NCBI GenBank assembly: GCA_020072815.1
Contig: JAIQGE010000015.1
Location: 43,825-107,824, forward strand
Direction of reading: 5' to 3'
Source: Terriglobia bacterium
Lineage (GTDB): Bacteria; Acidobacteriota; Terriglobia; Terriglobales; Acidobacteriaceae
Length of the DNA: 64,000 bases
The notes below the pieces were generated by a model. That model made no database searches, was not told the DNA's origin, and worked only from the letters and a program-made list of their open reading frames with translations. Positions within the stretch are counted from its first letter, which is position 1; every line of letters begins with the position of its first letter. Made by a program: the position numbers and the translations under genes. Of the stretch, positions 14,601-32,409 are shown piece by piece.

Positions 14601-15217
14601 CGGTGTTCGCCAACCTTACGGCTGCTGGTGATTTCTATGACCAGGGCTTCCTGAACAACTTCAACGCCGGCGGCCTGGGCGTGGCCCGTCCGTTCCTGGG
14701 CAACGCCAGCGCTCCGGTCAACACCGTGGGCATCTTCGCAGGCGATGCTTGCTTGCTCTTCGGCGGCGGCTGCGCGCTTCCGGCCACGCAATTGGTAAGC
14801 CTGAATGCGCTCAACGCCAACAACCCTGCGGTGGTCTCGGTGACCAAAGACCAGGTGCACTTCATCGCCAATACCGGAGTCGCCCAGACCGTATTTGGGA
14901 CGCCGTTCGGAAACGTCCCGCGCAACGCTCTGCGTGATGCTCCCAGCAATTTCCTCAATCTCAGCGTCTATAAGCGCGTCAAGCTGGGTGAACATGTGGC
15001 CTTTGAGTTCCACACTACCTTCTTGAACGCTTTGAACCATGCCAACTTCCTGGGCGTGAATCCCTTTGTGGAGAATGCCGGCAACCCCAACTTTGGGAAC
15101 GTTTTTGCCACCCCGAGCAAAGACATTGATCTCTTCAACGGCGGCACGGACGGCATTCCGGGCTCCACCCTGGCCGCGGCTCGTCGCATTTATTTTGGAG
15201 GAAAGATCACCTTCTAA
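11690..15217 (+). pseudogene. Oar-like TonB-dependent receptor, interrupted by an in-frame amber codon
   Basis: The gene starts at ATG 11690, with GGAG nine bases upstream, and encodes a signal peptide ending PSFGQ. It then enters a carboxypeptidase-regulatory-like domain (SISGTVVDP). TAG at 11810-11812 interrupts it; the same frame continues at once with GAVIPGAQAKATN, the normal continuation of this domain, and stays open to 15217 (about 1175 codons in total). The remainder has a plug region, a long beta-barrel rich in Asn, Gly and aromatics, and ends in IYFGGKITF with the terminal Phe of outer-membrane barrels. Such proteins import large substrates across the outer membrane. A CAG-to-TAG change would explain the stop. 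It may be a recent nonsense mutation, an assembly error, or read through by a suppressor. The part after the stop lacks its export signal. Confidence 0.85.
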
Positions 15218-15242: not shown

Positions 15243-15272
15243 GGCCCGTCGTTCCGGCGGGCCATTTTTTTT
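15243..15272 (+). terminator. Intrinsic terminator after the TonB receptor
   Basis: A 9-bp stem (GGCCCGTCG/CGGCGGGCC, one G-U pair) with a 3-base loop is followed by A and eight T residues, 25 bases after the receptor stop codon. Confidence 0.85.
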
Positions 15273-15988: not shown

Positions 15989-16478
15989 TTAGTTTCCCCC
16001 AGGAGAGTTTCGAACGCGGCGAGTGCGCCATTCCTCGTTCATCGGTTTCAAAATGCCACTCACTCTACCGGAAGGGCGAAGTTGTTGGCAAGGGAAAACA
16101 GGGTTATGAGCGCAGGAAGGTGAATCCCCCTGCACATTGCGCGCGCGCGTCGAAGAACGTGGCAACTTCTTCCGCCGCTCCCGCCTTGTGCAGGTCTTAA
16201 TTGGATGGGTAAAGGGCCGATGCCGCGGCCGGTCAAAGGTCACAGTCAGCGAGTGATCCCGTGTCGTGCGTGACACGTCCGTCTCCCAACTGACACAAGA
16301 TTATCTCTTCGAATCCCGTCAATTTCGGCCTTTCCGCCGCTTCTTCAACTTGGACAACAAAATGCTTCTCTCCCACGCGAAGCGTGGACCTATGGAGAGC
16401 AAAAAACACAGCAGCAAAGAAACTGCGAGAAAACATGGCGGCTACCTCGCCGCAAGTTGTATAGTCGCAAGTCGAGCC
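15989..16478. other. Intergenic region before the propeller operon
   Basis: About 490 bases if the propeller gene starts at 16479. The region includes a GC-alternating run (GCGCGCGCG near 16139) and no recognised promoter. An open frame in the propeller gene's phase extends back to 16266, but its residues are not signal-like, so I treat it as leader. Confidence 0.4.
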
Positions 16479-18401
16479 ATGAAAGCCTTTGCCCGCTTGA
16501 AGTGGCGATATGTGATCGCGCTGGCCCTGGGCCTTGCCGTGGGTTCGGTGGGCCTTGTGTATTGGCAGGCAAGCAGAGCTTTGCGGGTGGCGACCCATGA
16601 GGTCCGCGTGCAGGACGACTTGCCCTTCGTCACCGCCCGCCTCACGCCTGTCAGCAGCAGCTTTGAATGGATCAGCGCGCCCGCGGCCTTCACCGGCGCT
16701 GCCGTCTACAAAGGCGACTTCTACCTCTGTGGCGCTTCCGGGCTCTTTCAGTATGACGCCCACGGCGTGTTGCTCAAGCACTATCGCCCCGGACAGGACC
16801 TCCCACCCGCTCCCCTTCTGCGCATGGCCAGCGGAGTGTTAAAAGACTCTAAAGAGCCAGAGCTTTTCCTCACCACGGCCGGCCAGGGCGTTCTGGTCTT
16901 CAACGGAACAGACTTCCGCCAGTTCCTGCCCACCGCACCTGAGCTGCGGACCATCACCTCTATTCTTCCTTTGAGTTCCGGGCAGTTGCTGATCGGCACC
17001 CGTAAACGCGGAGTGCTGGTGTATGACGGAGTCCAGCTCAAGCAGTTTCACCCTGCGCTTGCCGCGCTGCACGTGACCGAACTGGCCGGCAGCGAAGCCG
17101 ATCTGTGGGTCGGGACGCAGGACCAGGGCGTAGTCCATTTTCAGGCGGGACGAGCCGAGGCTTTCGCTGAAGCCCAGGGCATGCCTGATCCGCAAGTGTT
17201 CTCCATTGCCTTGCTGGACAGCAAAACCTACGTGGGCACGGCCGCGGGAATCGCAGAATTTGACTCCGGCCGCTTTGTCCGCGTGCTGGCGCCAGGAATT
17301 TTCGCCCGCGCTCTCTACGCCGGCGGAGCCAGCGTCCTTAGCGGCGGCCCCGCGCAGGGGATTGCCGAGATCAATCCTGAGCCGCGGCGGCTCAAAGGCC
17401 TGCTGCAGACCACGGCGACCACCATGTCTGACGTCGAACAGATCTTCCGGGAAGGTGACACGCTCTACGCCGTCACTCCCCGCGCGCTCTTCGCCAAACA
17501 GGGCGAACATGGCAACTGGCGCCGCGTCCTCTCGCCCGACGCCACCCTCCTGGCGGACCGCAACATCTCAGCCCTGGCCTTGGACTCCGGCAACCGTCTC
17601 TGGGTGGGCTACTTTGATCGCGGCCTCGACCTGTTTGCCCCTGACCTGCGCTCCGCTACGCATATAGAAGATGACAACGTTTTTTGCGTGAACCGCATTG
17701 TGTCCAATTCCGCATCTGGCGCCATGGTTGTAGCCACGGCCAATGGCCTAGTTCTGTTCGACCAACTCGGACGCAAACAACAAGTGCTGGGCCGCAGTGA
17801 CGGCCTGATGGCTGACCACATCACGGACGCGGCCCTTTATCGCGGCGGCATGGTGCTGGCCACGCCCGCCGGACTCACTTTTCTGGATGCCAGCGGCCCC
17901 CACAGCCTGTATGCCTTCCATGGCTTGGTCAACAACCACGTTTACACCGTAGCGGCCGACGGAAAAGAAGTTGTGGCCGGCACGCTGGGCGGAATCTCCG
18001 TGCTGGAAGACGAGAACGTTGCCGCCAACTACACCGTGGCCACGCGCGGGCTCACCCACAACTGGATCTCTGCCGTGGTCCGCGATGGACATGATTGGAT
18101 TGTTGGCACCTACGGCGGAGGCATCGTGCGCCTGCTGGCCAACGGGCGATTTGAGCCGTTTGAAGTCGCCACCGGCAAGTTTGAGGTCTATCCCAACGCC
18201 ATGCTGGCCACCGGCAATCATGTTCTCGCCGGGACGCTGAGCCAGGGACTTTACGTTTACAACCGCAACTCTAATCGCTGGACGGTCATCACCGAAGGCT
18301 TGCCGTCGCTTACGGTGACCGCGCTGGCCTACGGCAACGGAACCATTTACGTGGGCACAGACAACGGTCTGGTCCGCATCCCGGAGCAAAATCTGCCATG
18401 A
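16479..18401 (+). CDS. Membrane-anchored beta-propeller protein (two-component-regulator-propeller type)
   Basis: About 640 residues from ATG 16479. I chose this start because it begins a basic stretch and a clear TM/signal anchor (about 10-28, IALALGLAVGSVGLVYW); earlier in-frame ATGs exist at 16372, 16392 and elsewhere, and none has a strong Shine-Dalgarno. The rest is blades of about 40 residues with recurring L/VWVG, G-GV and NGLV words (GNRLWVGYFDRGLDLF, IVGTYGGGIVRLL, IYVGTDNGLVRIP). This is the pattern of propellers found in front of hybrid kinases, but here there is no kinase. It opens a six-gene operon and overlaps the next gene by ATGA. It is likely an extracytoplasmic ligand- or protein-binding component. 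Confidence 0.8.
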   Translation: MKAFARLKWRYVIALALGLAVGSVGLVYWQASRALRVATHEVRVQDDLPFVTARLTPVSSSFEWISAPAAFTGAAVYKGDFYLCGASGLFQYDAHGVLLKHYRPGQDLPPAPLLRMASGVLKDSKEPELFLTTAGQGVLVFNGTDFRQFLPTAPELRTITSILPLSSGQLLIGTRKRGVLVYDGVQLKQFHPALAALHVTELAGSEADLWVGTQDQGVVHFQAGRAEAFAEAQGMPDPQVFSIALLDSKTYVGTAAGIAEFDSGRFVRVLAPGIFARALYAGGASVLSGGPAQGIAEINPEPRRLKGLLQTTATTMSDVEQIFREGDTLYAVTPRALFAKQGEHGNWRRVLSPDATLLADRNISALALDSGNRLWVGYFDRGLDLFAPDLRSATHIEDDNVFCVNRIVSNSASGAMVVATANGLVLFDQLGRKQQVLGRSDGLMADHITDAALYRGGMVLATPAGLTFLDASGPHSLYAFHGLVNNHVYTVAADGKEVVAGTLGGISVLEDENVAANYTVATRGLTHNWISAVVRDGHDWIVGTYGGGIVRLLANGRFEPFEVATGKFEVYPNAMLATGNHVLAGTLSQGLYVYNRNSNRWTVITEGLPSLTVTALAYGNGTIYVGTDNGLVRIPEQNLP

Positions 18402-20761
18402 AACGGCTGCTGGTCATGCTGCTGATTTTCTGCGCGCTGTCCCCCGCCGGCTGGGGCGATGCCGGCGTTCTCATTCCTCGCGACAAGGCCCAGCCGGACG
18501 CGGCCATTCTCTCGCTGGAGGAGATGGAGATCACCGTGCGCATTGACAATCGCGATGCGCGCGTCTTCGTGAAACAGATCTTCGCCAACCACACCGGGCG
18601 CATCGAAGAAGGGAACTACGTCTTCGCGCTCAACAGCCGCGCCGTGGTCTCTGACTTCGCCACCTGGGACGGCCCTGTCCGCCTTCCCGCGGTGATTCTG
18701 GAACGCAAACGCGCGGAAGAGATTTACACCAATCTGAAATGGCAGGCCATTGATCCCGGCCTGTTGCAGATGGGCGAGCGCACCGCTGACGAAGCCAGCA
18801 AGACCGCCGTCTTCAGCGCCAAGATCGTTCCCATTCCCGCCTACGGCACCAAGCGCCTGGAGTTTGAATACCATGAGAGCATTCCGGTGGAGAGTTTCAA
18901 ATCGTATTTCGCCATCGCGCTCAAACCGGAAGCCTATCATTCGCAGACCGCGCGGCGTCTGACCATCCATTTTGAACTGCGCTCGGAACACGCCATCCGC
19001 GACTTCAAGCAAATCAGCGCGGCTTATCCGCTCAAGATCACGCAGAAGAACGCCAACAGCATCACTGGCGAATTCACCGGAGACAACGTTGTTCTTGCGG
19101 AAGACTTCAACGTCCAGTATGACCTTGACTCTGGCGGCGGGGACACACTGCATGTGCTGACGTATCGCAATCCTGATTCCGGCCAGCCTGATCCCACGGA
19201 GACCTCGCCACAGCGCAGCACGAACGAACCCGGCTTTGTGGAAGTGGAAGCCTTGCTGGCGGCGAAGAGCAGCGGTGCGCAGGCGGCGCGTCCGCCCCAC
19301 AACGTGGTGGTGCTGTTTGATAACTCGCTCTCCATGCAGTGGGACAAGCTGGAGCGCAGTTATGAAGCAATGCAGAAAGTGCTGCATTCGCTCACTACGC
19401 AAGACAAGTTCAATTTGCTGCTGTTCAACAGCAAGATCGCTAACTTCCAGCCGGCCCCCGCCGCAGTGACTCCGGTGAGCTTGCAGCAGGCAACGGACTT
19501 TGTCCGCAACAGCCGCTTGCGCGGCGGGACTGATCTTCAACATGCCCTGGAAGCAGGCATGGCGCAGTGCGCGCAGGGCTCCAACAACTATCTGGTCGTC
19601 CTGACGGACGGCGACGCCACCCGCGGGACCATCCACAGCGGCAAGCTTGCTGCCTGGTACGCGGAGAAGTGGAAGGCGCTGCCGGATGCCAACCGCCCCA
19701 AATTGTTTGTCTTTGCCGTGGGCGACGACGCCAACCTTCCTCTGCTGCGTATGCTCACCCGCAATGACGGGCTACTCGAAAACGTGCTTTCCACTGAGTC
19801 GGCGGACTTCAAGCTGAATGCCTTCATTTCTAAGATGGGCCTGAACCCGATCGGCCAGTTGCGTATGGACGTGGATCCGCAGGCGGCGCTCGACCTTATT
19901 TATCCTCTGCAGGACACCTCGTTCGCCGGCTCCATGGCCGCCTGGGTCGGGCAATACAAGTCGCCCGCCGGCAAGGTCAACTTTGACGTCCGCGGCGTGC
20001 GCGAAGGCCAGGCCTTTGACATTCACGGCTCAGCCTCGTTGCCGGAGAAATCGCTCGACCACCCGCAGCTTCCGCGCTTGTGGGCCAAGGCCCGGGTGGA
20101 CGCATTGCTCGAGAAGATGGAGCGCGACGGCGAAGACCGCGCCAGCATTGATGAGATCATCCGCCTGGCGCGCAAGTACAAATTCGTTACGCCCTATACT
20201 TCATTCCTCGCCGTGCCCCGTGCGCTGTTGCGGCCACGCGTGATTCGCCCCGGCGATCCGGTGCTGCGCGTGCGTACCGATCCGGAGATTGTTTCCGTAG
20301 TCGCTCTGTTCCCGTTCGGTCTCACCAAACCTCTGCGCTATCTGGCCAAAGAAGACATGTGGCAAACGCGTTTCCTCGCTCCGGTGGACATGGAAGACGG
20401 CACGCACGCGGTCCGGCTGGTGCTGCGCGACCGCAGCGGCAACGTGTATCGCGAATCCAAGACCTTTGTGATCGCCAGCAAGCCGCCCACTCTCAAGATT
20501 GTGCTGGACCGCAAACGCTTCCGAAGAGGCGACGCCATCCATCTCAAGATCAACGCTTCGGCCAGCACGCGCACGCTGATCGCGCAACTGGAAGGCGCTG
20601 CGCCCGTCCGGTTGCGCTGGAATCCGGACGCATCCGCCAGCACCGGTGACGTGATGGTCCCTGACGAACTTGCTCCCGGCACGTATCGCCTGACGGTCAC
20701 CGCGGAAGATATGGCCCACAACATCGGCGCGCAGGAGGTGCAAATTGAAGTTCTCCCGTAA
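18398..20761 (+). CDS. VIT and von Willebrand factor A domain protein
   Basis: 787 residues. A signal peptide (about 1-20) is followed by a VIT domain (about 40-200) and a vWA domain from about 300. The vWA domain has an intact metal-ion site: D308-N-S310-L-S312 in VVLFDNSLSMQ, plus LTDGDATRG later. The family signature KYKFVTPYTSFLAV is present near 595-610. A C-terminal Ig-like region (about 680-787) follows. Such proteins bind partners through Mg2+ or Mn2+ and are usually secreted or envelope-bound in bacteria. The gene overlaps the propeller gene by 4 bases and the giant TPR gene by 17, so they are translationally coupled. Confidence 0.9.
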   Translation: MKRLLVMLLIFCALSPAGWGDAGVLIPRDKAQPDAAILSLEEMEITVRIDNRDARVFVKQIFANHTGRIEEGNYVFALNSRAVVSDFATWDGPVRLPAVILERKRAEEIYTNLKWQAIDPGLLQMGERTADEASKTAVFSAKIVPIPAYGTKRLEFEYHESIPVESFKSYFAIALKPEAYHSQTARRLTIHFELRSEHAIRDFKQISAAYPLKITQKNANSITGEFTGDNVVLAEDFNVQYDLDSGGGDTLHVLTYRNPDSGQPDPTETSPQRSTNEPGFVEVEALLAAKSSGAQAARPPHNVVVLFDNSLSMQWDKLERSYEAMQKVLHSLTTQDKFNLLLFNSKIANFQPAPAAVTPVSLQQATDFVRNSRLRGGTDLQHALEAGMAQCAQGSNNYLVVLTDGDATRGTIHSGKLAAWYAEKWKALPDANRPKLFVFAVGDDANLPLLRMLTRNDGLLENVLSTESADFKLNAFISKMGLNPIGQLRMDVDPQAALDLIYPLQDTSFAGSMAAWVGQYKSPAGKVNFDVRGVREGQAFDIHGSASLPEKSLDHPQLPRLWAKARVDALLEKMERDGEDRASIDEIIRLARKYKFVTPYTSFLAVPRALLRPRVIRPGDPVLRVRTDPEIVSVVALFPFGLTKPLRYLAKEDMWQTRFLAPVDMEDGTHAVRLVLRDRSGNVYRESKTFVIASKPPTLKIVLDRKRFRRGDAIHLKINASASTRTLIAQLEGAAPVRLRWNPDASASTGDVMVPDELAPGTYRLTVTAEDMAHNIGAQEVQIEVLP

Positions 20762-23700
20762 AGTTTTCATTCAATCCTCCATCGTTGCCGCGGCGGTTGT
20801 TGCCGGTGCGATGGCGGCGCGGGCTGCCCTCCCCGAGTGGATACAGAACATAGAAGCGCGCTCGCTGATTGAGGGCGCCATCTTCCGCACCATGCAGTTG
20901 CCCGGCGGGCCAACCGCGGTGCGTCGTCCGCCGGCAGAGACCGTTCCTGCATTGGGTGAGCTGATCAAGCAGCGTCCGCAGCAAGCCGATCTCTACTCGC
21001 TGAAAGCGCTGGAGGAAGAACAGAAGCTGGACTTCTCCGCGGCGGAGTCCGATTGGAAGCTGTACCTGCAGAATTCCTCTGACAAAGCCCCGGCGCAACT
21101 GGCGCTGGCCGACTTCTACCATCGTCGCCATCGCCCGCAGGATGAAGTCAACGCGCTCTCCGCCTTGGGACGCCTGCCGTCACCGCCAGCGGAAAAGTTC
21201 ACCAGCGTGACTGACCAGCAATCCTGGCGCGCGTTTGAGCGAATCTTCCAGGTTATTTCCGCGCAGGCCCTGGGAAGAAATATCTCTGAAGAGCAATACA
21301 ACGCGTGGATCGCACGCTATCCGCAGGAGCGCGGCCTCTATGGCCGCTATTTCGAGTACCTGTTGAACGAGAAAGACTTCAAGTCCGCGAACGACCTGGT
21401 CGCCAAGTACCACGCCAAGTTTCCTGACGACGAAGTCTTCCCAACAAAGACGCGCGCTCTGCTGGCCTACCGGCAAGGCTCGGTGGAAGAAGGCTTGGCG
21501 GTCTATGACAAGAGCTTCCAGCCGCTTTGGCCGCCGGAGCTGGTAAAAGATTATTTTGACCTGCTGAAAGAGACGCGCAGCCAGCGCAAGTTTCTCGATC
21601 AGTCGCGCGCCGCGCTGGTCCGCAACCCTGACGACCTGAACGCCGCCGCCCGCATCTTTTATTACTACCAGCAATTGGGCAACTTCCAGGCTGCACAGCA
21701 GACCATAACGGACTATCGCCTGCAGAAGGACGCTCGCAAGGCGCAGTGGACTTCGCAGGAGCTCTACACCTTCGCGCGCCTGCTGGAAGACGTCCATCTG
21801 TACCCGGAATCTGCGCGCTATTACTACGCGCTCTACAACGGTGCAGGGCCTGATGCCTCAGCTCCAGAGAAAGCCCTTGCCGGGCTGTCGCGCATTCTGC
21901 TGACCGCGCCGGAGCAGCAGATTCGCCTGGGGTCGGGCGACTTGTCCATGTATCGCGACATCGCCAACATGGACACCGGCCCCGGCTACTTGAACGGCAT
22001 ACTGTCTTTGCTGCTGAACACCACGCAGCCGGCCGCGCATTATTCTGAGGAAGAGCAGCGCGCCGTGCCGTATTTCCACCGCTCACGCGCTGCTGAACTT
22101 CTTGCGCTGCTGGACAAACGCTTCCCCAGTTCGTCCTCCCGTCCCGAATTGCATGCCCGGCTGATTGAGGCCTACGCGGGCTACGGCCAGAGTGACGCCG
22201 TGATTCGCGCTGGACGCGAATTTCTGTCGGGGTTCCCGTCAGCCCCGCAGCGCAACCAGGTCGCGCTGTTGATGGCGGACGCCTTTGCCCGCACCAACAA
22301 TACCAAAGAAGAATTTGCCATTTACGATTCCATGCTGCAGGAGCTGGCGCGCAAGGCGGAAGGTGTCCCGCTGGGAGAGCGCTTCAATGAAGCTCCCGCA
22401 GCTCCGCAATACCAGGACAACACGCAGAACAACCAGAATGACGCCGAAGGCGAAGGTGACGACGAATCCGGCCAGCGGCCCACGCCGCGCGGCAGACCGA
22501 TTTCGCAGCAAGGCGCGTTTGCTGTCTCGAAGTCTCCTTCTGCCACACAGGCCGGTGTTCGCTCGCCCGAGTACCAGCGCGTTCTGGACCGCTACATTGG
22601 ACGGCTCGTCTCGCTTAAGCAGATTCCCGCCGCGCTGGTAGTCTGGCGGCAGGAGTTGGACCGCAATCCCAACGACCCCGGTCTCTACGAGCGATTCGCC
22701 GCCTTTCTGGAGAGCAACCGTCTGGGGACCGAAGAAGAAGCGGTGTACAAGCGCGCCATCCAGCAATTCCCGGGCAAGAACTGGTATCACAAGCTGGCGC
22801 GTTGGTATTTGACCAAGAAGCGCAACCAGGACCTGCAAGCGTTGTCGTACCAGGTGCTGAAAATCTTTTCCGGCAGCGAGCTTGAAGCTTATCTGGACAA
22901 CGTTGCCGGCCAGCCGGGCCAACTCAGCCTGGAGTTCAACCAGTTCGCCCATGAACGCTTCCCGCACAATTTGGCTTTTGTCCGCCACTTGATGGAACTC
23001 TATCGATCCAAACAGTTCCGGAATGACGCCTTATGGGAAGCTGTGCTTCGCCAGCACTGGTTTGAAGATGACGCGTTGCGCAACCAGTTCTTTGAATTCC
23101 TGTCTCGCACCGGAAAGTTGGACGCCGAACTCCAGGGACTCACTGCCAGCGCGTCTCCGGCAAAAGGGGACTGGACGGCCCCGGCGGTCGCGAATCCTGG
23201 GGGAGTGCGCTTCATAGCCGAAGCCGAGCTGTGGCGTTCGCACTTTGAGGCGGGAGCGCCCGTGGTCGCCGCCGTAGCGCAACAATATCCAGCCGACGCC
23301 GGTCTTGGACGCCGCGCTGCTTCGGTCTACCGCTCGCTTGCGTACTTTGAACCGAAAGACACTGAAGTCGCGGTGCAAATTGAATCCAACTTGCTGAAGG
23401 CCTCGCCCGCGGACCGCGACACGCTGGCCCGCATCGGCGACATTTATTCTGACCGTGAGCTGTTCAACAAAGCCGTGCCTTACTGGAACCAGATGCCGGG
23501 CACCGAACCCGGCAAGCCGGCCAGCTACGAAGAAGCCGCAACCGTCTTCTGGGATTATTACTTCTTTGACGACGCGCTGCGTCTGCTGAACCTGGGCCGC
23601 ACCAAGCTAAGCGACGATTCGCTTTACAGCTATCAAGTGGGCGCCATCTACGAAAACAAGCGCGACTACTCGCGCGCCGTGGATGAATACGTAAAAGGGT

Positions 23701-26700
23701 CATTGGTGAGCGGCGCCTACTCTGAGTCACGCGGCAGGTTGTTGCAGCTGGCCACGCGCAAATCGTCGCGCGACTTGGTGGATGCGGCCACAGACAAAGC
23801 CGTCATCGCCTCCAAGTACGATCTTACGGCGATTGACCTTCGTGTGGCCGTGTTGGAAGCGCAATCGCGCAAAACTGACGTTGCCGTTTTTCTGAATACC
23901 GTGCTCGATCGCAGCAACTCGGTTGAGGTGCTGGAAGCCGTCGAAAACATGGCTAAAGAGAAGTCGCTGGAAGCTGTGCGCCAGCACTCGCTGGAACGGC
24001 AGGCGGCGGTGAGCAATGATCCCATCCGGCGGCTGGAGTTGCGCTACGCCCTGGTGACTTTCTACGAGCAGAAGAAGGACGTGGCCGCGGCCCAGCGCAA
24101 CGTGGATGCGCTCTACCAGGAGAATCCCAAGATCATGGGCGTGGTCCGCTCCACCGTGGACTTTTATTGGCGCAACAGACTCCAGCAGAAAGCCATTGAC
24201 GTTCTGTTGCAGGCGGCCAACAGCGCTTATCCTGCTCTGAAAACGCAGTTCACCTATGAGGCCGCGCGGAAGATGACCGAGACCGGCCAATATCAGCCGG
24301 CCCGCAAGCTGTTGCTGGGGTTGCTGGAGAACAATCCTTACAACGCTGAGTACCTGGCTGCCGTGGCCGATACTTATGCCCGCTCCGGCGACCAGGCCGG
24401 CTTGCGCGACTTCTACCTGGAAAAGATCAAGCTTTTCCAGAAATCCACGCTCTCCCAGGATGAGCGCAAGGCGCGCATTGCCGCGTTGCGTCGCGGGCTG
24501 GTTCCCGCGCTTACCTCCCTCAAAGACTACGCCGGCGCTGTGGACCAGTATGTGGAGATCATCAACGCCTATCCAGAAGATGCAGGCCTAACCACGGAAG
24601 CGGCGTATTACGCGCAGCGCTACCAGCGCAAAGACCAGCTATTGAGTTTCTACGCCAAAACTGTCGCGGCGTCCCCCAAAGATTCGCGCTGGGCCGTGGT
24701 GCTGGCGCGCGTGCAAGCCAACTATGAAGATTTTGACGCTGCCATCCGCACTTATTCGCAGGCCATCAAGGTGCGGCCGGACCGCACGGACCTGATGACC
24801 GCACGTGCCGCGCTGGAAGAGCGCTTGTCGCGCTTTGATGACGCCGCCGCTGACTACGCGTCTCTGTACGAACTGGCGTATCACGACACCAAGTGGATGG
24901 AGAAAGTCGCTGAGATTCGCGCGCGCCAAAGCAAGCCCGACCTGGTGGTCCAGGCGCTAAAGACGGCTTTGCTCGATGGACGTCCGGAAGCTGCGGGTAA
25001 ATATTTTACTGTCGCAGAACGGCTGGATGGCTGGGGCATGCTGGCGCAAGCGCGCGAGTACGCGGAGAAAGGCGTCAGCGTTGCCGGCGACGATCTGCTG
25101 GCCAACTCTGACAACCACGCCGGAGCCCAGGTGTACACCCGCATCATGACCCGGCTGCGGCAACAGGAAGCTGCTTACCAGAGGTTGCAGGCCGGCGTCG
25201 CCGGCGCGCAGCAGTTGCCGTCTCTGGCGCAGCAGGTGGGCAAGAACGGTTTGGATGCAGTCACCAACGCGGAGCTGCGCAAGAACCTGCTGCTCACGCG
25301 CACTAGCAACGCCCACAGCGGAATGGCGGCCTGCATGCGCGAGATGGGAACAGTCGCCGCCAAATATTTCACGCCGGAAGAAAAGCTGGCGATGGCGCGC
25401 GCGCTGGATGCCAAGAACGCCGCCCTGTCGCGCGAACAGGCGTATGAGTACCTGATGCCGTTGGCCGAGAAGGCCGGGTTCGCGGAGTTCCAAGTCAAGC
25501 TGCTGTATGAACAAGCGCAAGCCGGAAGACAAGATCGCCCCTGGTTGCAGACCCTGGAGCCGCTTCAGGTGCGCCGCTTGCGGCTGATGGAACTCGGCGG
25601 ACAGTGGGAACGCATTGCCGGCGCTAGCCGTCAAGAAACGAAGATGGGTTATCTGCAGCGTTCCGCCCAAACGTTCAACATGGCCGGCAGCAGCGACGAC
25701 GAGTTGCGCGTCTACCGCAAAATGGACGCCATCAGCCCGCTCTCGCAGGACCGGTATTTTGAATTGCTGCTGGCCAAGGCGCCGCAGGAACTGGAAAGCA
25801 TGGCCGCGAGCAAGCTTCGCCGCGATGCCGTCGCCAACTTCCTTCTGGCGCACTCGGACTTGAACCGGAGTCTGTCCGCCATCCACGCCGGACGCCTGGA
25901 GCGTCCCGCCGTGTGGGATTCGGCTTATAGTGCGCTGGCTGGTTTGTATTTCACTGATCTTGATATCAAAGCCGCGTCGTCGCAAACCCAGAGCGCTTTC
26001 CAGACCGCTCTGAGCGACCGCACCATCGGCGAGCGTCTGGGCAAGCCCGTGGACCGCAACCAGGCTTTGGCCGGCGACATATGGTTCTACTACGGTTCGC
26101 GCTACGGCGAGTACCTGGGCGCCACCAAGAAAGGCGATCCTGAAGATTTCTTGCCGGCGGAGATGGAGCACACTCCGGCGCGGCCGGCTGCGTACTTTAG
26201 CGCTGCTTTGTACTATGAGGACTCCGGCGACCAGGCGCGGGCCATTGCGGACTACCAGCATGTGATGGAACTGGCTCCGCAGCGCCTTGACGTCCACAAC
26301 CGGCTGGCCGGGATTTACTGGAAGCAAAAGAAAAACGACCAAGCCATTGCCGAATGGAAACGCGTGGTTGAGTTGTTGAAGGCGCAGGCCGGCACGCGCG
26401 GCACGCCGGAAACATTCTGGGGAGATTACTCGGCCACCGTCAACAATCTGGCCACAAGGCGCCTGCTGGCGCAGTTCCAGCCGGACATCGTGGAGATTCT
26501 GCATGCTTACGTCCGCAACAACGGCGTGTACCGCGTCCTGCCTCTGTTGCAAAGCACGCTGCCCAAGCTGGAGAACTCGGCCGCGGCCACGGCGCTGGCG
26601 CTGGACCTGGCCAACGATTCGCCGGAGAAGCTCTCATTCCTGCGGCGAGTAATCTCCGCCACCAATCTCCATCTTGATCCCGAGCCTCTGTACGCCCGAA

Positions 26701-28136
26701 TTCTAACGCTGGCCCAGGAGCAGGTAGAGAAATCAGAAGGCGGCACGCGCGAGTATGCCCAGGGCCAGCTTGAGGGATTGCGCGTTGAGTGGCTGCAATA
26801 TCTCTTCAAGACCAAGCAGTACGACCGCGCGCGCGGCGAGCTGAGCGCGTTGCCCAAGGAAATGTGGGATTCGCAGCAGGCCGCGCTGGTCCCCCTGCAG
26901 CTCAAGCTGGCAGCGCTCAACAATACGCTGGGACCCCTGATTGAAGGCTATCGCGCGGACGCAGAGCACGCTCCGGCCAGCGACGTTCTGCGCAAGACGG
27001 CGACTGAGCTGCAGCAGGCGGGCGACAAGCAATCCGCGCGCACGATTCTGGAATTTGTGTTTGCCCGGGAAATTGAGAACCACAATCTCACCGCCGCCAA
27101 CATGCTCGGCCTGGCGGACATCCGCATACAGTCCGGCGATCTGGAGAGCGGCGCGGCGCTGTTGCGCCGCATGGCCCTGGTGGTTGGCAATCCCTTTGAG
27201 ACCCAGGACCCCGCCGCGGCGCTGCTCATGCGCACCGGACATCCAGCTGAAGCTGTGGGCTTCCTGGAAGAACTGGTCAAAGCTGTTCCGTGGAATGCTG
27301 ACTATCGCGTTCGCCTGGCGCAAGCGCGGCTGGCGGCCAACCAGAATCCTGATTCAAGTCGCAAAGAACTGGCCGCCGTGGCTTCCAGCCCTGGGGCTCC
27401 GTACGAAACCCGGCTTAGCGCGGCCCGTTCTCTGACTGCCGCGGGAACCGCCGATCTCGGCAGCAGGGAGCTGACGTTGCTGGCGCGAGGCGGCCAGATC
27501 AGTCCCGGCGAAGCCAACCAGCCTTTCTTCTTTTCTGCGCGGCTGAAAGCCGCTGAGAACCTGCCGGCCAGCGCGCGCATCGTTCTGCTGCGGGCGGCGC
27601 TGGAAGACTATCCCAGCGGTGACGCTGCGCGCGTGCCTCTGCTCAAGGCCGCAGGCGCCAATGGAGATTACGAGCTGGCCATTGCCGTGATGAAGCCTTT
27701 CCTGCAGAACAGCATTTTTGAGTCAGCTTACGGCAGGCGGCGCACTACCGATGAAGATGATGAGCTGGTGGACGACACGACGGCCTCCGACGGATCGCTG
27801 CGTGACTTCATGAAGCTGCCGGCAAAAGAATGGGCGGAGATCAACCGCGATCTGGGCCAGGCGTTCGAGAAAACCGGCGCTCCGGACCAGGCGCTGCTGT
27901 ACCTGCGCCGCGCCTACGGTCTGGAAACCGACGCGGTGGTCAAGTCGCAAATCAACAAACAGGTGCAGCAGATTCGCGCCGCGCAGCGCCGCCGCACAAC
28001 GAATGCTGCACGCCGGCCCATGGTGCGGACGGAACTGGAACAGGAGCACGTGGTACGCCCGCGTATTCCGGAACCAGGACCATCCACTTCGCCACCGCCG
28101 GCTGCGGCGCCGGCACGGAAAGGAGCCGGGCTATGA
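20745..28136 (+). CDS. Giant exported TPR-repeat protein
   Basis: 2463 residues, very large for a bacterial TPR protein. It has an N-terminal hydrophobic signal or anchor (about 5-28) followed by nearly continuous helical repeats. Recognisable TPR units include about 95-125, ALVVWRQELDRNPNDPGLYERF, GAVDQYVEIINAYPEDAGL, AIADYQHVMELAPQRLDVHNRLA, and units near the C terminus (APDQALLYLRRAYGLET). A charged low-complexity insert sits at about 550-590 (NTQNNQNDAEGEGDDES) and a Pro-rich tail ends the protein. No catalytic domain was seen. Its likely role is a scaffold spanning or lining the envelope for its operon partners. It starts inside the vWA gene's end and ends in the ATGA start of the next gene. 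Family unknown. Confidence 0.85.
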   Translation: MKFSRKVFIQSSIVAAAVVAGAMAARAALPEWIQNIEARSLIEGAIFRTMQLPGGPTAVRRPPAETVPALGELIKQRPQQADLYSLKALEEEQKLDFSAAESDWKLYLQNSSDKAPAQLALADFYHRRHRPQDEVNALSALGRLPSPPAEKFTSVTDQQSWRAFERIFQVISAQALGRNISEEQYNAWIARYPQERGLYGRYFEYLLNEKDFKSANDLVAKYHAKFPDDEVFPTKTRALLAYRQGSVEEGLAVYDKSFQPLWPPELVKDYFDLLKETRSQRKFLDQSRAALVRNPDDLNAAARIFYYYQQLGNFQAAQQTITDYRLQKDARKAQWTSQELYTFARLLEDVHLYPESARYYYALYNGAGPDASAPEKALAGLSRILLTAPEQQIRLGSGDLSMYRDIANMDTGPGYLNGILSLLLNTTQPAAHYSEEEQRAVPYFHRSRAAELLALLDKRFPSSSSRPELHARLIEAYAGYGQSDAVIRAGREFLSGFPSAPQRNQVALLMADAFARTNNTKEEFAIYDSMLQELARKAEGVPLGERFNEAPAAPQYQDNTQNNQNDAEGEGDDESGQRPTPRGRPISQQGAFAVSKSPSATQAGVRSPEYQRVLDRYIGRLVSLKQIPAALVVWRQELDRNPNDPGLYERFAAFLESNRLGTEEEAVYKRAIQQFPGKNWYHKLARWYLTKKRNQDLQALSYQVLKIFSGSELEAYLDNVAGQPGQLSLEFNQFAHERFPHNLAFVRHLMELYRSKQFRNDALWEAVLRQHWFEDDALRNQFFEFLSRTGKLDAELQGLTASASPAKGDWTAPAVANPGGVRFIAEAELWRSHFEAGAPVVAAVAQQYPADAGLGRRAASVYRSLAYFEPKDTEVAVQIESNLLKASPADRDTLARIGDIYSDRELFNKAVPYWNQMPGTEPGKPASYEEAATVFWDYYFFDDALRLLNLGRTKLSDDSLYSYQVGAIYENKRDYSRAVDEYVKGSLVSGAYSESRGRLLQLATRKSSRDLVDAATDKAVIASKYDLTAIDLRVAVLEAQSRKTDVAVFLNTVLDRSNSVEVLEAVENMAKEKSLEAVRQHSLERQAAVSNDPIRRLELRYALVTFYEQKKDVAAAQRNVDALYQENPKIMGVVRSTVDFYWRNRLQQKAIDVLLQAANSAYPALKTQFTYEAARKMTETGQYQPARKLLLGLLENNPYNAEYLAAVADTYARSGDQAGLRDFYLEKIKLFQKSTLSQDERKARIAALRRGLVPALTSLKDYAGAVDQYVEIINAYPEDAGLTTEAAYYAQRYQRKDQLLSFYAKTVAASPKDSRWAVVLARVQANYEDFDAAIRTYSQAIKVRPDRTDLMTARAALEERLSRFDDAAADYASLYELAYHDTKWMEKVAEIRARQSKPDLVVQALKTALLDGRPEAAGKYFTVAERLDGWGMLAQAREYAEKGVSVAGDDLLANSDNHAGAQVYTRIMTRLRQQEAAYQRLQAGVAGAQQLPSLAQQVGKNGLDAVTNAELRKNLLLTRTSNAHSGMAACMREMGTVAAKYFTPEEKLAMARALDAKNAALSREQAYEYLMPLAEKAGFAEFQVKLLYEQAQAGRQDRPWLQTLEPLQVRRLRLMELGGQWERIAGASRQETKMGYLQRSAQTFNMAGSSDDELRVYRKMDAISPLSQDRYFELLLAKAPQELESMAASKLRRDAVANFLLAHSDLNRSLSAIHAGRLERPAVWDSAYSALAGLYFTDLDIKAASSQTQSAFQTALSDRTIGERLGKPVDRNQALAGDIWFYYGSRYGEYLGATKKGDPEDFLPAEMEHTPARPAAYFSAALYYEDSGDQARAIADYQHVMELAPQRLDVHNRLAGIYWKQKKNDQAIAEWKRVVELLKAQAGTRGTPETFWGDYSATVNNLATRRLLAQFQPDIVEILHAYVRNNGVYRVLPLLQSTLPKLENSAAATALALDLANDSPEKLSFLRRVISATNLHLDPEPLYARILTLAQEQVEKSEGGTREYAQGQLEGLRVEWLQYLFKTKQYDRARGELSALPKEMWDSQQAALVPLQLKLAALNNTLGPLIEGYRADAEHAPASDVLRKTATELQQAGDKQSARTILEFVFAREIENHNLTAANMLGLADIRIQSGDLESGAALLRRMALVVGNPFETQDPAAALLMRTGHPAEAVGFLEELVKAVPWNADYRVRLAQARLAANQNPDSSRKELAAVASSPGAPYETRLSAARSLTAAGTADLGSRELTLLARGGQISPGEANQPFFFSARLKAAENLPASARIVLLRAALEDYPSGDAARVPLLKAAGANGDYELAIAVMKPFLQNSIFESAYGRRRTTDEDDELVDDTTASDGSLRDFMKLPAKEWAEINRDLGQAFEKTGAPDQALLYLRRAYGLETDAVVKSQINKQVQQIRAAQRRRTTNAARRPMVRTELEQEHVVRPRIPEPGPSTSPPPAAAPARKGAGL

Positions 28137-29839
28137 GATCGAAAATGAGACTGTCGCTCGTCGCGATGCTCGCTTTGTGTATCACTGGGGCCGTTGGTTG
28201 GACGCTCTACCAGGGGCCCGCAGGCGCCGCCCGTCCGCTGGACCAGTTGGTGCCGGAAGGCGCGCTGTTGTACATCGAAGCCAGGGACTTCGCCGGCCTG
28301 ATGAAGGACTGGAACGCGTCGCCGGAGAAGGCCCAGTGGCTGAAGAGCGACGACTATCGCGTGTTCTCGAATTCACGGCTCTTCCTGCGGCTCAGCAAAG
28401 CGTCTGACGAATTTGCCGTGGCCGCCGGTGTTCCCCCGAACATGAAGTTCCTGGATGACGCCGCGGGCAAAGAGAGCGCGCTGGCCATCTACAACATCGG
28501 CGAACTGGAATTCCTGTACATTAGCCGCATGAGTTCTGGGAGTTTTGTGCAGTCGCCGCTGTGGCAGTCGCGCAACAAGTTCCAGCCGCGCACGGCGGGA
28601 GGCAAATCGTTTTACACGCGCAAGGACGAAGCATCCGGACGCGTAGTGGCTTTCGCCGTGGCCGACGACTACCTGGTCCTGGCGACGCGCGAAGACCTGG
28701 TGGCCGGCGCACTCGAGTTGCTGGGCGGGAGCAAGGGCCATACCATCCGGCAGGAAGGCTGGTACACCAAGGCCCTGGCTGCGGCGCCTCCGGCGGCGGG
28801 CGACTTGCGCATGGTGATGCATCTGGAAAAACTCGCGGTGACGCCGCACTTCCGCACTTATTGGGTGCAGCGGAACATTACGGAGATGCAGAGCTATGAG
28901 AGCGCTGTGTCAGACCTCTACCGCCAAGGCGCGGCTTACCGCGAGGAGAGAGTCATCCTGCCGGCCAAGAGCAGCGACGAAGACACATCACTCGCGCAGT
29001 CAGCGCAGGCGGTGACCGGACTGCTGAGCATGGTGCCCAAAGATTACGGGTTCTATCGCGCCGGCCAAACAGACGCCAAGAGCAGCCTGGCGGTGGTGGA
29101 ACAGAAGATCATCGCGCCGCATTTTGGAGCCGCGCCGGCTGAAAAGCTGGCTCCGCAAGTGCAACTTGGCGGCGGGCAAACCGGCTCCAGTTCTGACCTG
29201 GAGACGCGCATTGACGTTGAGCCTGCATCGCGCACGGTGGGCGGGAACGCGCGCGAAGGATTGCAGAAACAATTTGAAAGCGCCAATGTGCAAGCCATGC
29301 TGGTGGTGCAGTCCACGCGCAAGAACACAGACGGTGTGCTGCTGGACAATCCTTCCGTAGTGGTAATTGCGGCCGCCAACGACTGGGATTTTCCCGCCTT
29401 GCAGAAAGCGCTGCAGGATGTGCTGGCGCCGGGCATGACGGCGTCACGCCTCGGCGTCCAGTGGCGCGAAGTGAAAGATGCCGGCGGTTATTTCGAACTT
29501 GACGGGCTTTCGCCCCTGCAGATGGCCGCGCGCGGCAAGCTGCTGCTTTTTGCAAATGACGCGGCGGCTCTGTCCGCGGTGCTGCAGGCCAAGACTCCGG
29601 CGGGTTCGCCGGTGAACTATGCCGCAGGTTTCAGCCATAGTCGCGAACGGCAGAACTTCTATGAGTTCACGTCGCTGGTGGACCGTGGTTCAGGCGCGCC
29701 TGCCAACGAACCGCAATTCTTCTCCCGCAATGTGGCCAGCTTCAGCCGCAGCTTTGCCCGCGTGGAATCTGAAGAAGTGGTAGTGCGCCAGAATAAGGAT
29801 AGAATCCAGCAGACGGTAACCTATCATTGGACGCAGTAA
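28133..29839 (+). CDS. Exported hypothetical protein (DUF3352-like?)
   Basis: 568 residues. The ATG at 28133 has AAGGAG 7 bases before it and overlaps the TPR gene stop (ATGA). The N terminus is a signal or anchor (about 7-25). The next words, LVPEGALLYIEARDFAGLMKDW, resemble the start of DUF3352-type exported proteins that open with 'P-x-A-L-x-Y'. The rest is mixed alpha/beta without recognised catalytic motifs; two similar halves may exist (the segment near LVLATREDLV and that near LLLFANDAAAL both follow a 'display and discard' pattern). It ends just before the transpeptidase-like gene. Function unknown; family call tentative. Confidence 0.8.
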   Translation: MRSKMRLSLVAMLALCITGAVGWTLYQGPAGAARPLDQLVPEGALLYIEARDFAGLMKDWNASPEKAQWLKSDDYRVFSNSRLFLRLSKASDEFAVAAGVPPNMKFLDDAAGKESALAIYNIGELEFLYISRMSSGSFVQSPLWQSRNKFQPRTAGGKSFYTRKDEASGRVVAFAVADDYLVLATREDLVAGALELLGGSKGHTIRQEGWYTKALAAAPPAAGDLRMVMHLEKLAVTPHFRTYWVQRNITEMQSYESAVSDLYRQGAAYREERVILPAKSSDEDTSLAQSAQAVTGLLSMVPKDYGFYRAGQTDAKSSLAVVEQKIIAPHFGAAPAEKLAPQVQLGGGQTGSSSDLETRIDVEPASRTVGGNAREGLQKQFESANVQAMLVVQSTRKNTDGVLLDNPSVVVIAAANDWDFPALQKALQDVLAPGMTASRLGVQWREVKDAGGYFELDGLSPLQMAARGKLLLFANDAAALSAVLQAKTPAGSPVNYAAGFSHSRERQNFYEFTSLVDRGSGAPANEPQFFSRNVASFSRSFARVESEEVVVRQNKDRIQQTVTYHWTQ

Positions 29840-30651
29840 CCAAAGTGAAGGCGGCGCGAACTGGATTGCTGCTGCTGTTCTTGTGGCAGAGCGCGCTGCC
29901 GCCCTGCGTCTCCGCCGGCGATCTGCACGCGCAATCCGCGGCTGCGGTCTTCGCGCGGCAATTTACCAGTCCGGATCTCTCCTACATCGCGCTGGACGAG
30001 AACGGCCAAGTCGTGGCCCAGCGCTGGCCGGATGCCGATCGCATGGTCCCCGTCGGCTCGCTGGTTAAGCCCTTCGTGGCCGTGGCTTACGGTCGCACGC
30101 ACGCGTCGTTTCCACGCTTTCGCTGCGAAGGCAAGAAGACATGCTGGCTGCCGCGCGGACACGGCAACCTGGGCATCGCCCAGGCGATCGCCTTCTCCTG
30201 CAACTCTTACTTCCGGCAATTGGCAGCAAACTCCGCGCCTGATTCTGCTGCCTCCACGCTGGAACGTTTTGGCGTAAGTCCGGCCAACGACGGCCTGAGC
30301 GGAAGCGCCGCCCCGCTGGCGTTGGTCCACGCCTACTTGGAACTGGCGAGTCTGGGCGAAGAACGCGCTGTGGCTCCTATCCTGAGCGGCATGACCATGT
30401 CCGCTCAGAAAGGAACTGGCAAAGCGGTGAGCGCGGAGTTGCCGCGCACGGCAGCGCTGGCCAAAACCGGCACCGCACCGTGTACTCACGCGAAGAAAGC
30501 TCCCGGCGACGGCTTTGCCGTAGTGATGGCGCCGGCCGGGCATCCGCGCTTCGTGCTGCTGGTCCGCGTGCATGGCAGGCCCGGGGCAGCCGCTGCAGAC
30601 GTGGCGGGGCGCATGATCGCGGCTGTTGACGGCGATGGTGCGTCTCGATGA
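29827..30651 (+). CDS. Minimal penicillin-binding-type transpeptidase domain protein
   Basis: 274 residues from a TTG at 29827; a GTG at 29845 is an equally reasonable start that still leaves a signal peptide (ending PPCVSA). All three active-site motifs of the penicilloyl-serine transferase fold are visible: S78-x-x-K81 in VGSLVKPF, S124-C-N126 in AFSCNSYF, and K213-T-G215 in ALAKTGTAP. The words CEGKKTCWLPRGHGN and IAQAIAFSCNSYF match class B penicillin-binding proteins. At about 240 mature residues it is far shorter than a usual PBP and has no dimerisation domain or separate TM region. It may be a peptidoglycan transpeptidase or carboxypeptidase, or a degenerate binding protein. It overlaps both neighbours. 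Confidence 0.8.
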   Translation: MDAVTKVKAARTGLLLLFLWQSALPPCVSAGDLHAQSAAAVFARQFTSPDLSYIALDENGQVVAQRWPDADRMVPVGSLVKPFVAVAYGRTHASFPRFRCEGKKTCWLPRGHGNLGIAQAIAFSCNSYFRQLAANSAPDSAASTLERFGVSPANDGLSGSAAPLALVHAYLELASLGEERAVAPILSGMTMSAQKGTGKAVSAELPRTAALAKTGTAPCTHAKKAPGDGFAVVMAPAGHPRFVLLVRVHGRPGAAAADVAGRMIAAVDGDGASR

Positions 30652-31676
30652 AGCGCTTCCACCTCGCTGCGTTCTTCTTTCTGGCGCCGTTCAGCGCCCA
30701 AGCCGGCGACGTCAGCATCGGCGTACTGGGATTGTTTCATCCCAGAGAGATCGTCGTCGCGCCGCGCGCCGGGCATGTGCTGGAATGCTTGGCCGGCGGC
30801 AAGCGATGGACAGTCACTGCGCCGCTCCGTCTGCGACTGGAAGGTTCCGGGGCAAGAATCATTTTGGACGATAACGCCGCGCCAGTCCCCGCAGTCCGCT
30901 GCGACGATGGCCAGAATGGACCCGCAGAGTTTTCAGTAGCGGTTCCGGAGAAGATCTCGCGGCGCTACGCCGGCAAACTGGAAGTGGAAGCTCAGCGTCG
31001 CGAGTTGTTGATCACCGTCAAGATGGAGATGGAGACCGCCGTGGCGTCTGTGGTCGCCGCAGAAAGCCCGCCGGATGCTCCCATGGAAGCGCTCAAAGCT
31101 CAAGCCGTGGCGGCGCGATCGTTTCTGGCGGCCGGGAAGGGCCGCCACCACGGATTTGATTTCTGTGACACCACTCACTGCCAGTTCCTGCGTGAGTCGC
31201 CCAAGTCAGGGTCGCCGGCCGCGCGTGCAGCAGCAGAGACGAGCGGCATGGTGCTGGCTTATCGAGATGAGGTCTTTGCCGCCATGTACAGCGCGAGCTG
31301 CGGTGGGAGAACTCATTCACTGGAGGAATTGGGAATCCCGGTGCGCGATTATCCTTACTTCGCGGTGCCTTGCGAGTATTGCCATCGCCATCCCGAACGT
31401 TGGGTGGCCGCGCTCAGCGCGGAAGACGCCGCGAGTTTGAAAGGCACGGAAAGCTCGCGGCTCAAGCTGGCGCGGAAGCTAGGCTGGCAGACCGTTCCCA
31501 GCAATTCGTATGCAACCCATCGCCAGGGCGATCTGGTATTGGTCAAAGGCACGGGCTCGGGGCACGGAATCGGCTTGTGCGAGCGCGGCGCGCTTGACAT
31601 GGCGCGGCAAGGCGCGCAGTTTCAGGAGATCCTGGCGCATTACTATCCGAACACGGCGGTGAAGCAGCTGCCGTGA
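30648..31676 (+). CDS. SpoIID/LytB-domain protein
   Basis: 342 residues. A signal peptide (about 1-20) is followed by about 100 residues of beta-rich sequence, then the SpoIID domain. The conserved Glu is E139 in VVAAESPPDAPMEALKAQAV, followed by AARSFLA, SCGGRTHSLEE and GSGHGIGLCERGALDMA, the usual signatures. In sporulating Firmicutes SpoIID is a lytic transglycosylase that cuts stem-peptide-free glycan; homologues in non-sporulators are linked to peptidoglycan remodelling. A four-Cys cluster (CEYC plus nearby Cys) is an addition. It starts on the ATGA overlap with the transpeptidase gene and closes the six-gene operon. Confidence 0.9.
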   Translation: MKRFHLAAFFFLAPFSAQAGDVSIGVLGLFHPREIVVAPRAGHVLECLAGGKRWTVTAPLRLRLEGSGARIILDDNAAPVPAVRCDDGQNGPAEFSVAVPEKISRRYAGKLEVEAQRRELLITVKMEMETAVASVVAAESPPDAPMEALKAQAVAARSFLAAGKGRHHGFDFCDTTHCQFLRESPKSGSPAARAAAETSGMVLAYRDEVFAAMYSASCGGRTHSLEELGIPVRDYPYFAVPCEYCHRHPERWVAALSAEDAASLKGTESSRLKLARKLGWQTVPSNSYATHRQGDLVLVKGTGSGHGIGLCERGALDMARQGAQFQEILAHYYPNTAVKQLP

Positions 31677-31680
31677 GACA

Positions 31681-32172
31681 TCATCCCGCCTGAGAGTGCA
31701 CGGCCTTCAGGTACGCGTTGATGGCGGCAGCGTGTCCCACGATGAAGCGCGAAACAAAGCGGAAGACCGGATTGTAGACTTCGCCGTTCTCGGTGATGGT
31801 CAAAGAGCAGCCCTCCGCGGTGGGAGTGATCTCGTACGTCCACGTTCCGCCGAAAGGCAGCTTGGGGTCGGCAATCCGGGTGACCAGGCGGCGCGGCGGC
31901 ACGGACTCAACGGCCTCAAAGGTGATGGTCTGCCCGCGCAGGTCGGTTTCGCGCCACATGCGGTGACCATCGCGCGCCGGGAGTTCCTGGTACTTCACCA
32001 AGTCCTGGCGCCAAAAGGGCGGGCCGCTGACCAGTTTCCAGACAACCTCCGGCGGCCGCCGCAGAGTTGTGGTGCGCGACACGGTGTGGTTCTTGGGCAG
32101 CATGGCTCCGGTGACCACGACCAGCATCAGCGGCACGGCAATAATCAGGGCGATGATCAAGATCCATTTCAT
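31681..32172 (-). CDS. SRPBCC-family protein with N-terminal membrane anchor
   Basis: 163 residues. A hydrophobic N-terminal helix (about 3-24) is followed by an SRPBCC (START/polyketide-cyclase-like) fold: RPPEVVWKLVSGPPFWRQ, then an alternating beta section with GGTWTYEITPTAEGCSLTITENG, and a C-terminal helix RFIVGHAAAINAYLKAV. The fold binds hydrophobic ligands; here it would face the periplasm or membrane. The gene is convergent with the SpoIID operon (5-base gap between stops). Specific function unknown. Confidence 0.85.
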   Translation of the reverse strand: MKWILIIALIIAVPLMLVVVTGAMLPKNHTVSRTTTLRRPPEVVWKLVSGPPFWRQDLVKYQELPARDGHRMWRETDLRGQTITFEAVESVPPRRLVTRIADPKLPFGGTWTYEITPTAEGCSLTITENGEVYNPVFRFVSRFIVGHAAAINAYLKAVHSQAG

Positions 32173-32409
32173 GGCATACCAAGATAATTTGATTCGTCAA
32201 CGCAGGGTAGATATTTTCTCATTTTGGTGGTTCGTGCCGGGTGCGCCAGGCCGCGGCCGAGAAACCCGTTTCGAAGCTGCACGAACGCAAAGGTCGTGGG
32301 CCGCGCCGGGCTTCCGAGCATGTCCGTAGAAATCTCGACAATGGGATTGCGGGCGGTTACACTCTGCAATCACTTTCAAAACAAAACTACAACTCAAGGA
32401 ACCAACAGC

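Follow-up and report, generated by a model that had tools for sequence, protein, structure and literature searches.

Positions 16479–31676 of the window, a 64,000-nucleotide stretch of a contig from a Terriglobia bacterium of the Acidobacteriota (GenBank JAIQGE010000015.1), hold six overlapping genes that form one real unit, and the best reading of this unit is as a macroglobulin-free counterpart of the yfa operon of Escherichia coli (yfaA-T-S-Q-P) and the mag operon of Pseudomonas aeruginosa. All six frames lie on the + strand with successive overlaps of 4, 17, 4, 13 and 4 bases, which confirms the single unit with 4–17-base overlaps described in an earlier reading of the letters (the original prediction). 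Each product carries a hydrophobic N-terminal stretch (mean Kyte-Doolittle value 1.36–1.99 over 19 residues) and is predicted to be exported or membrane-anchored, again as proposed. The features are as follows.

16479..18401, + strand: gene 1, predicted membrane-anchored beta-propeller with Reg_prop repeats, 640 amino acids (aa) (PF07494, 9.8e-08; hydrophobic N-terminus)
18398..20761, + strand: gene 2, predicted exported VIT and vWA protein with an Ig-like C-terminal part, 787 aa (PF08487, 4.2e-15; PF13768, 6.2e-13; PF19077, 4.2e-06)
20745..28136, + strand: gene 3, giant TPR protein, 2463 aa, TTG start (TPR families)
28133..29839, + strand: gene 4, predicted membrane-anchored protein with a YfaA-like predicted fold, 568 aa (no Pfam or NCBIfam family)
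29827..30651, + strand: gene 5, mini-PBP (penicillin-binding protein), transpeptidase core only, 274 aa (PF00905, 4.6e-09; SLVK, SCN and KTG; PBP2-type)
30648..31676, + strand: gene 6, SpoIID-type putative lytic transglycosylase, 342 aa (PF08486, 5.5e-20; Glu139 and an H167/C173/H177/C178 zinc-type site)
15243..15263, + strand: terminator-like hairpin, 9-pair stem with T tail (consensus match only)

Family searches agreed with the identities given in the original prediction (propeller, VIT/vWA, 2463-residue TPR, unknown, transpeptidase and SpoIID), with gene 4 falling in no family. The start of gene 1 was taken as the ATG at 16479 and not the GTG at 16266, to which the open frame extends back, because four of five uncut relatives measure 642–645 aa from stop to stop (the fifth, 695 aa). 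The metal-dependent vWA domain suggested for gene 2 is borne out at the level of motifs, since the predicted metal-site residues (DxSxS, T, DG) are intact in all six proteins compared, that of the window and five full-length relatives. Relatives of gene 3 span 1982–2572 aa among the 46 frames longer than 1900 aa. A Pfam scan of the six proteins detected no macroglobulin, DUF1175, DUF2300, DUF2135 or DUF2138.

The gene order recurs across families, yet its presence is patchy. Scanning genome contigs with gene 6 confirmed 139 relatives, of which the best 80 loci were kept; the named relatives are for the most part metagenome assemblies. Profile searches placed matches to genes 3, 4, 5 and 6 in order at 47 of the 80 loci, and genes 3 and 4 were present at 43 of the 59 loci that have more than 5 kb ahead of gene 6. 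Gene 6 stood alone at 20 of 80, for some owing only to a contig end. The record titled Bryobacterales bacterium F-183 (L068) carries genes 2–6, and the L106 contig carries all six. Gene 4 was found in 14 of 81 genomes of the class and in 16 of 198 of the phylum, two of the latter (G000, G046) being common to the class set, and gene order was read in the 27 other genomes with gene 4 (13 of the class and 14 further ones of the phylum). All six genes were ordered on one strand in 9/27 (G001, G021, G046, G066, G072, G107, G118, G138 and G236); these represent six families, with G107, G118 and G138 belonging to one genus and gene 1 of G046 cut by the end of the stretch. Genes 1–4 were ordered in 15/27, namely these nine and six more (G059, G088, G103, G123, G189 and G257). 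In G059, genes 5 and 6 lie ahead of gene 1, giving a rearranged but complete unit, and in G103 genes 1–5 run up to a contig end with gene 6 at the end of another contig. Both genes 5 and 6 are missing beside the others in G088 and G123; G189 and G257 retain gene 6 but show no match to gene 5. Partial orders were cut by contig or stretch ends in G028, G034, G044 and G065; G133 has only genes 2–4 in order, and G132 has genes 3 and 4 together with the gene 5–6 pair elsewhere. Gene 4 occurs without gene 3 in G053 (at a contig start, with genes 5 and 6 absent from the next 6.9 kb) and in G073, where gene 5 follows; in G024 there is no gene 3 match in the preceding 5 kb, and G159, G182 and G221 have a lone gene 4.

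Chance adjacency of the six genes was rejected because the order recurs in several families. The original prediction had named an order confined to this strain as the finding that would count against it, and the order extends well beyond the strain. The recurring order speaks for its further idea, that the six genes are one system, although in some genomes gene 5, or both genes 5 and 6, are missing from the unit. The six proteins may work together as one machine, and the earlier view of the operon as a peptidoglycan-linked envelope machine is partly supported.

Both predicted wall enzymes keep their catalytic residues. S78/K81, S124/N126 and K213-T-G (SxxK, SxN and KTG) are invariant in 40/40 aligned gene 5 sequences, namely the window's own and 39 of the 40 whose coverage exceeds 80%; some gene 5 match was seen in 58 loci, and the most divergent are left out of this count. 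E139, H167, C173, H177 and C178 are likewise invariant in 47/47 aligned gene 6 sequences (the window and 46 of the 67 matches with more than 80% coverage), a set that includes SpoIID genes outside the unit and leaves out macroglobulin-linked SpoIID. The SxxK, SxN, KTG and SpoIID Glu signatures of the original prediction are among these positions, and the loss of transpeptidase or SpoIID residues in relatives, which it had also named as adverse, was not seen in either alignment. Gene 6 matches the solved SpoIID structures 4rwr, 5i1t and 5txu, and its E139 and H167, C173, H177 and C178 align with E101 and H134, C140, H145 and C146 of Clostridioides difficile SpoIID. In that enzyme E101, C140 and H145 are described as required for in vitro activity, with zinc bound at about 1:1 (PMC6221140). 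Gene 6 shares this catalytic Glu and the His/Cys zinc-type site with the SpoIID-SpoIIP-SpoIIM engulfment machinery of Bacillus and Clostridioides, whereas Pfam and NCBIfam scans recognised no SpoIIP amidase, SpoIIM or SEDS protein among the six products. A genome search found no other SpoIID in the window's genome. In a different genome (G133; L142:7180-12489), a lone SpoIID gene adjoins one for a propeller protein of 1285 aa that also has Y_Y_Y and protein kinase domains.

Gene 5 resembles class B PBP2 (MrdA) in its transpeptidase core and motifs, and differs from it in that Pfam finds only the transpeptidase family in its 274 aa, with no pedestal or dimerisation domain seen, and in that the six-gene unit lacks a SEDS protein. 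A protein reduced to this core, with no other domain, might serve as a penicillin-binding sensor, or be a beta-lactamase-like protein, instead of acting as a wall enzyme, and the operon might be a cell-wall stress sensor. We regard this as very improbable: its motifs (SLVK/SCN/KTGT) and its GHG...SCN..F stretch are those of a PBP2-type protein, and a kinase or other output domain was recognised in none of the six proteins (Pfam/NCBIfam). The same PBP2-type core would suit a module for growth or division, in which SpoIID and the mini-PBP reshape the septal or lateral wall, a role that the SpoIID homologue has in Chlamydiales, with genes 1–4 positioning or regulating the pair; the Waddlia homologue is reported to be septal and to cleave glycan strands (PMC6635528). 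This seems distinctly unlikely. Gene 4 is patchy at the frequencies given above, and therefore not a core growth function, and the genome has six other transpeptidase genes (from a genome search whose list lacks gene 5; hmmscan found that gene at 4.6e-09).

The correspondence with the macroglobulin operons begins with the two enzymes. E. coli YfaQ carries DUF2300 and SpoIID, and its gene shares the yfa operon with yfaS, the macroglobulin gene, which the annotation of E. coli K-12 lists as a pseudogene. The gene 6 profile scored 42 bits on YfaQ, and gene 6 is, by sequence, akin to a macroglobulin-linked SpoIID-DUF2300 protein. The gene 5 profile gave 7.8 bits on the YfaQ N-terminus, and hhalign of the gene 5 alignment against YfaQ gave P 3.9e-4 with a probability of 35.5% over 161 columns; these weak scores hint that gene 5 may be akin to the YfaQ N-terminus. 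YfaQ has SLWK, SCG and KTW at the places of the gene 5 motifs (L003:4149-5798) and resembles a degenerate PBP transpeptidase joined to SpoIID and DUF2300 in one protein.

Acidobacterial macroglobulin loci have a similar arrangement. At 5 of the 80 loci (L072, L073, L077, L079 and L081), SpoIID lies near genes for a macroglobulin and a DUF1175 (YfaT-family) protein on the other strand, and in four of them a full transpeptidase gene stands directly ahead of SpoIID; the contig of the fifth, L077, begins inside SpoIID. DUF2300 scored above cut-off in L072 and below it in L073, L079 and L081, and was not seen in L077. The L072 SpoIID scores E 1e-54 against the alignment of gene 6 sequences and has the same FDFCDTTHCQ stretch. 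SpoIID lies within 5 kb of bMG10 in 5 of the 15 class genomes that have bMG10 (G022, G029, G036, G043 and G076). The L072 macroglobulin has a CTEQ thioester-type stretch, unlike MagD, and these loci are therefore not exactly type II. A separate transpeptidase gene directly before SpoIID is also found in L080 (449-9758, Candidatus Saganbacteria), where a transpeptidase gene, SpoIID, AMMECR1, a bMG10 macroglobulin, VanW and a family-less 538-aa frame follow in a row. Compared with the six-gene unit, L080 and the acidobacterial loci differ in having a macroglobulin, with DUF1175 in five, and no gene 2, 3 or 4 matches. The 538-aa frame was rejected as a gene 4 counterpart, as no profile matched it and its translation looks like that of a membrane protein with several passes.

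Gene 4 supplies the third point of contact. It has 1848 relatives at E 0.001 or better, and none of the 120 matches listed carries a Pfam family. Its identification as DUF2138 by sequence was rejected, no sequence likeness being found. In predicted models, however, gene 4 and YfaA (DUF2138) appear to share a fold: the order of elements is near-identical and the top PDB match is the same (from the VIA-align rows of this comparison only the shared rank lists were used), and both are single-pass proteins of about 560 aa. Two gene 4 neighbours of 610 and 636 aa (L122 and L129) were rejected as further copies, being GAF-SpoIIE and VanW/glycosyltransferase frames. A lone gene 4 adjoins the GAF-SpoIIE protein in L122, with same-sized frames in L124 and L125 (all three in two-contig 3.7 Mb genomes), and the VanW and glycosyltransferase-like frame follows gene 4 in one genome (L129:4151-6058).

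In P. aeruginosa, MagA, MagB and MagF are reported to bind MagD; a transmembrane helix is predicted for MagB alone, and MagD falls sharply when MagB, or likewise MagE, is lost (PMC5764988). MagB would be a YfaA-type protein, to judge from its operon position and from the DUF2138 proteins that occur in Pseudomonas. The mag operon likewise has six genes, mostly for exported proteins. Set beside mag and yfa, the present unit shares the PBP-like and SpoIID pair, apparently fused in YfaQ and here two separate genes with intact motifs, and has giant TPR, VIT/vWA and propeller proteins in place of macroglobulin, DUF1175, DUF2300 and DUF2135. The statement in the original prediction that no named system has this content must be revised, since the enzyme pair and, by predicted fold, gene 4 correspond to yfa/mag parts; no description of the six-gene operon was found in the literature searched. 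DUF2135 (YfaP) was considered as a link to the VIT/vWA proteins and rejected, as it occurs in 0/81 class genomes, that of the window included. DUF1175 (YfaT) was absent from the six proteins, to which the search for it in this genome was confined. The genome's one MG2 match lies outside the window's contig: it falls on C9, within a macroglobulin of 1789 aa that has A2M_recep and TED domains (L091:4898-10267). In L021 (8035-8862), a macroglobulin gene truncated where the contig stops, with GCAEQ at the thioester place, lies on the other strand 1.3 kb past an operon of the six-gene type; this A2M fragment, though genuine, was set aside as a link to the operon, being a single cut case that is nearer to the genome's stand-alone A2M than to that of L072 (143 vs 73 bits).

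Gene 4 and SpoIID also tend to occur together. SpoIID was present in 34 of the 81 class genomes, in 14/14 with gene 4 vs 20/67 without (Fisher 7.6e-7, uncorrected for kinship), and in 14/14 further phylum genomes having gene 4. Mutual exclusion of gene 4 and the bMG10 macroglobulin was not significant.

Based on these comparisons, we tentatively propose, with a confidence somewhat short of even, that the six genes encode an inner-membrane-anchored periplasmic complex, a yfa/mag counterpart in which TPR, VIT/vWA and propeller proteins replace the macroglobulin and its helpers, and which would guard and repair peptidoglycan. The guard and repair role is our leading guess, prompted by the mag operon, which shields Pseudomonas from some effectors that attack peptidoglycan: protection is reported against VgrG3 and, in limited measure, against Tae1, and in the same account none against TseH or attack by B. 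thailandensis (PMC12663445). By analogy with mag, gene 4 would form the hub, and the gene 3 TPR protein the scaffold arm, of the complex. Binding of the wall, or of a protein that intrudes or is damaged, might fall to the propeller and the metal-dependent vWA domain; SpoIID would cut glycan strands at the site and the mini-PBP open or re-close cross-links there, activities suggested by their invariant catalytic residues.

Two points weigh against this proposal. In the further phylum genomes, SpoIID genes distant from gene 4 are mostly unpaired (of seven stretches, one has gene 5 beside gene 6, one is cut and five have none), and most of the same facts fit another arrangement, in which SpoIID and the mini-PBP open peptidoglycan locally to mount a trans-envelope giant TPR machine for binding, secretion or adhesion. 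Specialised lytic transglycosylases open the wall for secretion systems, and the unit combines a predicted lytic enzyme and a predicted cross-link enzyme with a 2463-residue exported protein whose relatives are long too; moreover, genes 1–4 can occur without genes 5 and 6 adjoining. No secretion ATPase, channel or outer-membrane protein was recognised among the six products (Pfam/NCBIfam), however, and a terminator-like hairpin follows the upstream beta-barrel gene. We consider such a wall-opening role unlikely.

Under the proposal of a guard and repair complex, a recurrent acidobacterial operon becomes tied to the poorly understood yfa/mag macroglobulin systems. The comparison suggests that the part common to both is the membrane hub and the PBP-SpoIID pair, not the macroglobulin, and it points to a possible function for YfaQ and YfaA, which belong to families still classed as domains of unknown function. 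Gene 4 gains a possible structural home, and the action of macroglobulin complexes on peptidoglycan becomes testable in a second system. A bolder form of the proposal, which we hold to be doubtful, is that Acidobacteriota own a second, macroglobulin-free periplasmic immune complex, built on the hub and PBP-SpoIID repair pair shared with Mag/Yfa and fitted with a 2,500-residue TPR arm, metal-dependent VIT/vWA protein and propeller, that resists the wall-attacking enzymes of competitors and mends the damage.

The hairpin at 15243..15263 lies directly 3′ of the upstream outer-membrane protein gene and is the probable left border of the six-gene unit; terminator-like hairpins are frequent in the scanned region (30 found vs 19 expected). 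The upstream gene, at 11942-15217 of the window, encodes an outer-membrane beta-barrel protein (OMP_b-brl_4, with a weak TonB plug). On the other side, a 163-aa open frame without a Pfam match (31696-32187) starts 20 bases past gene 6.
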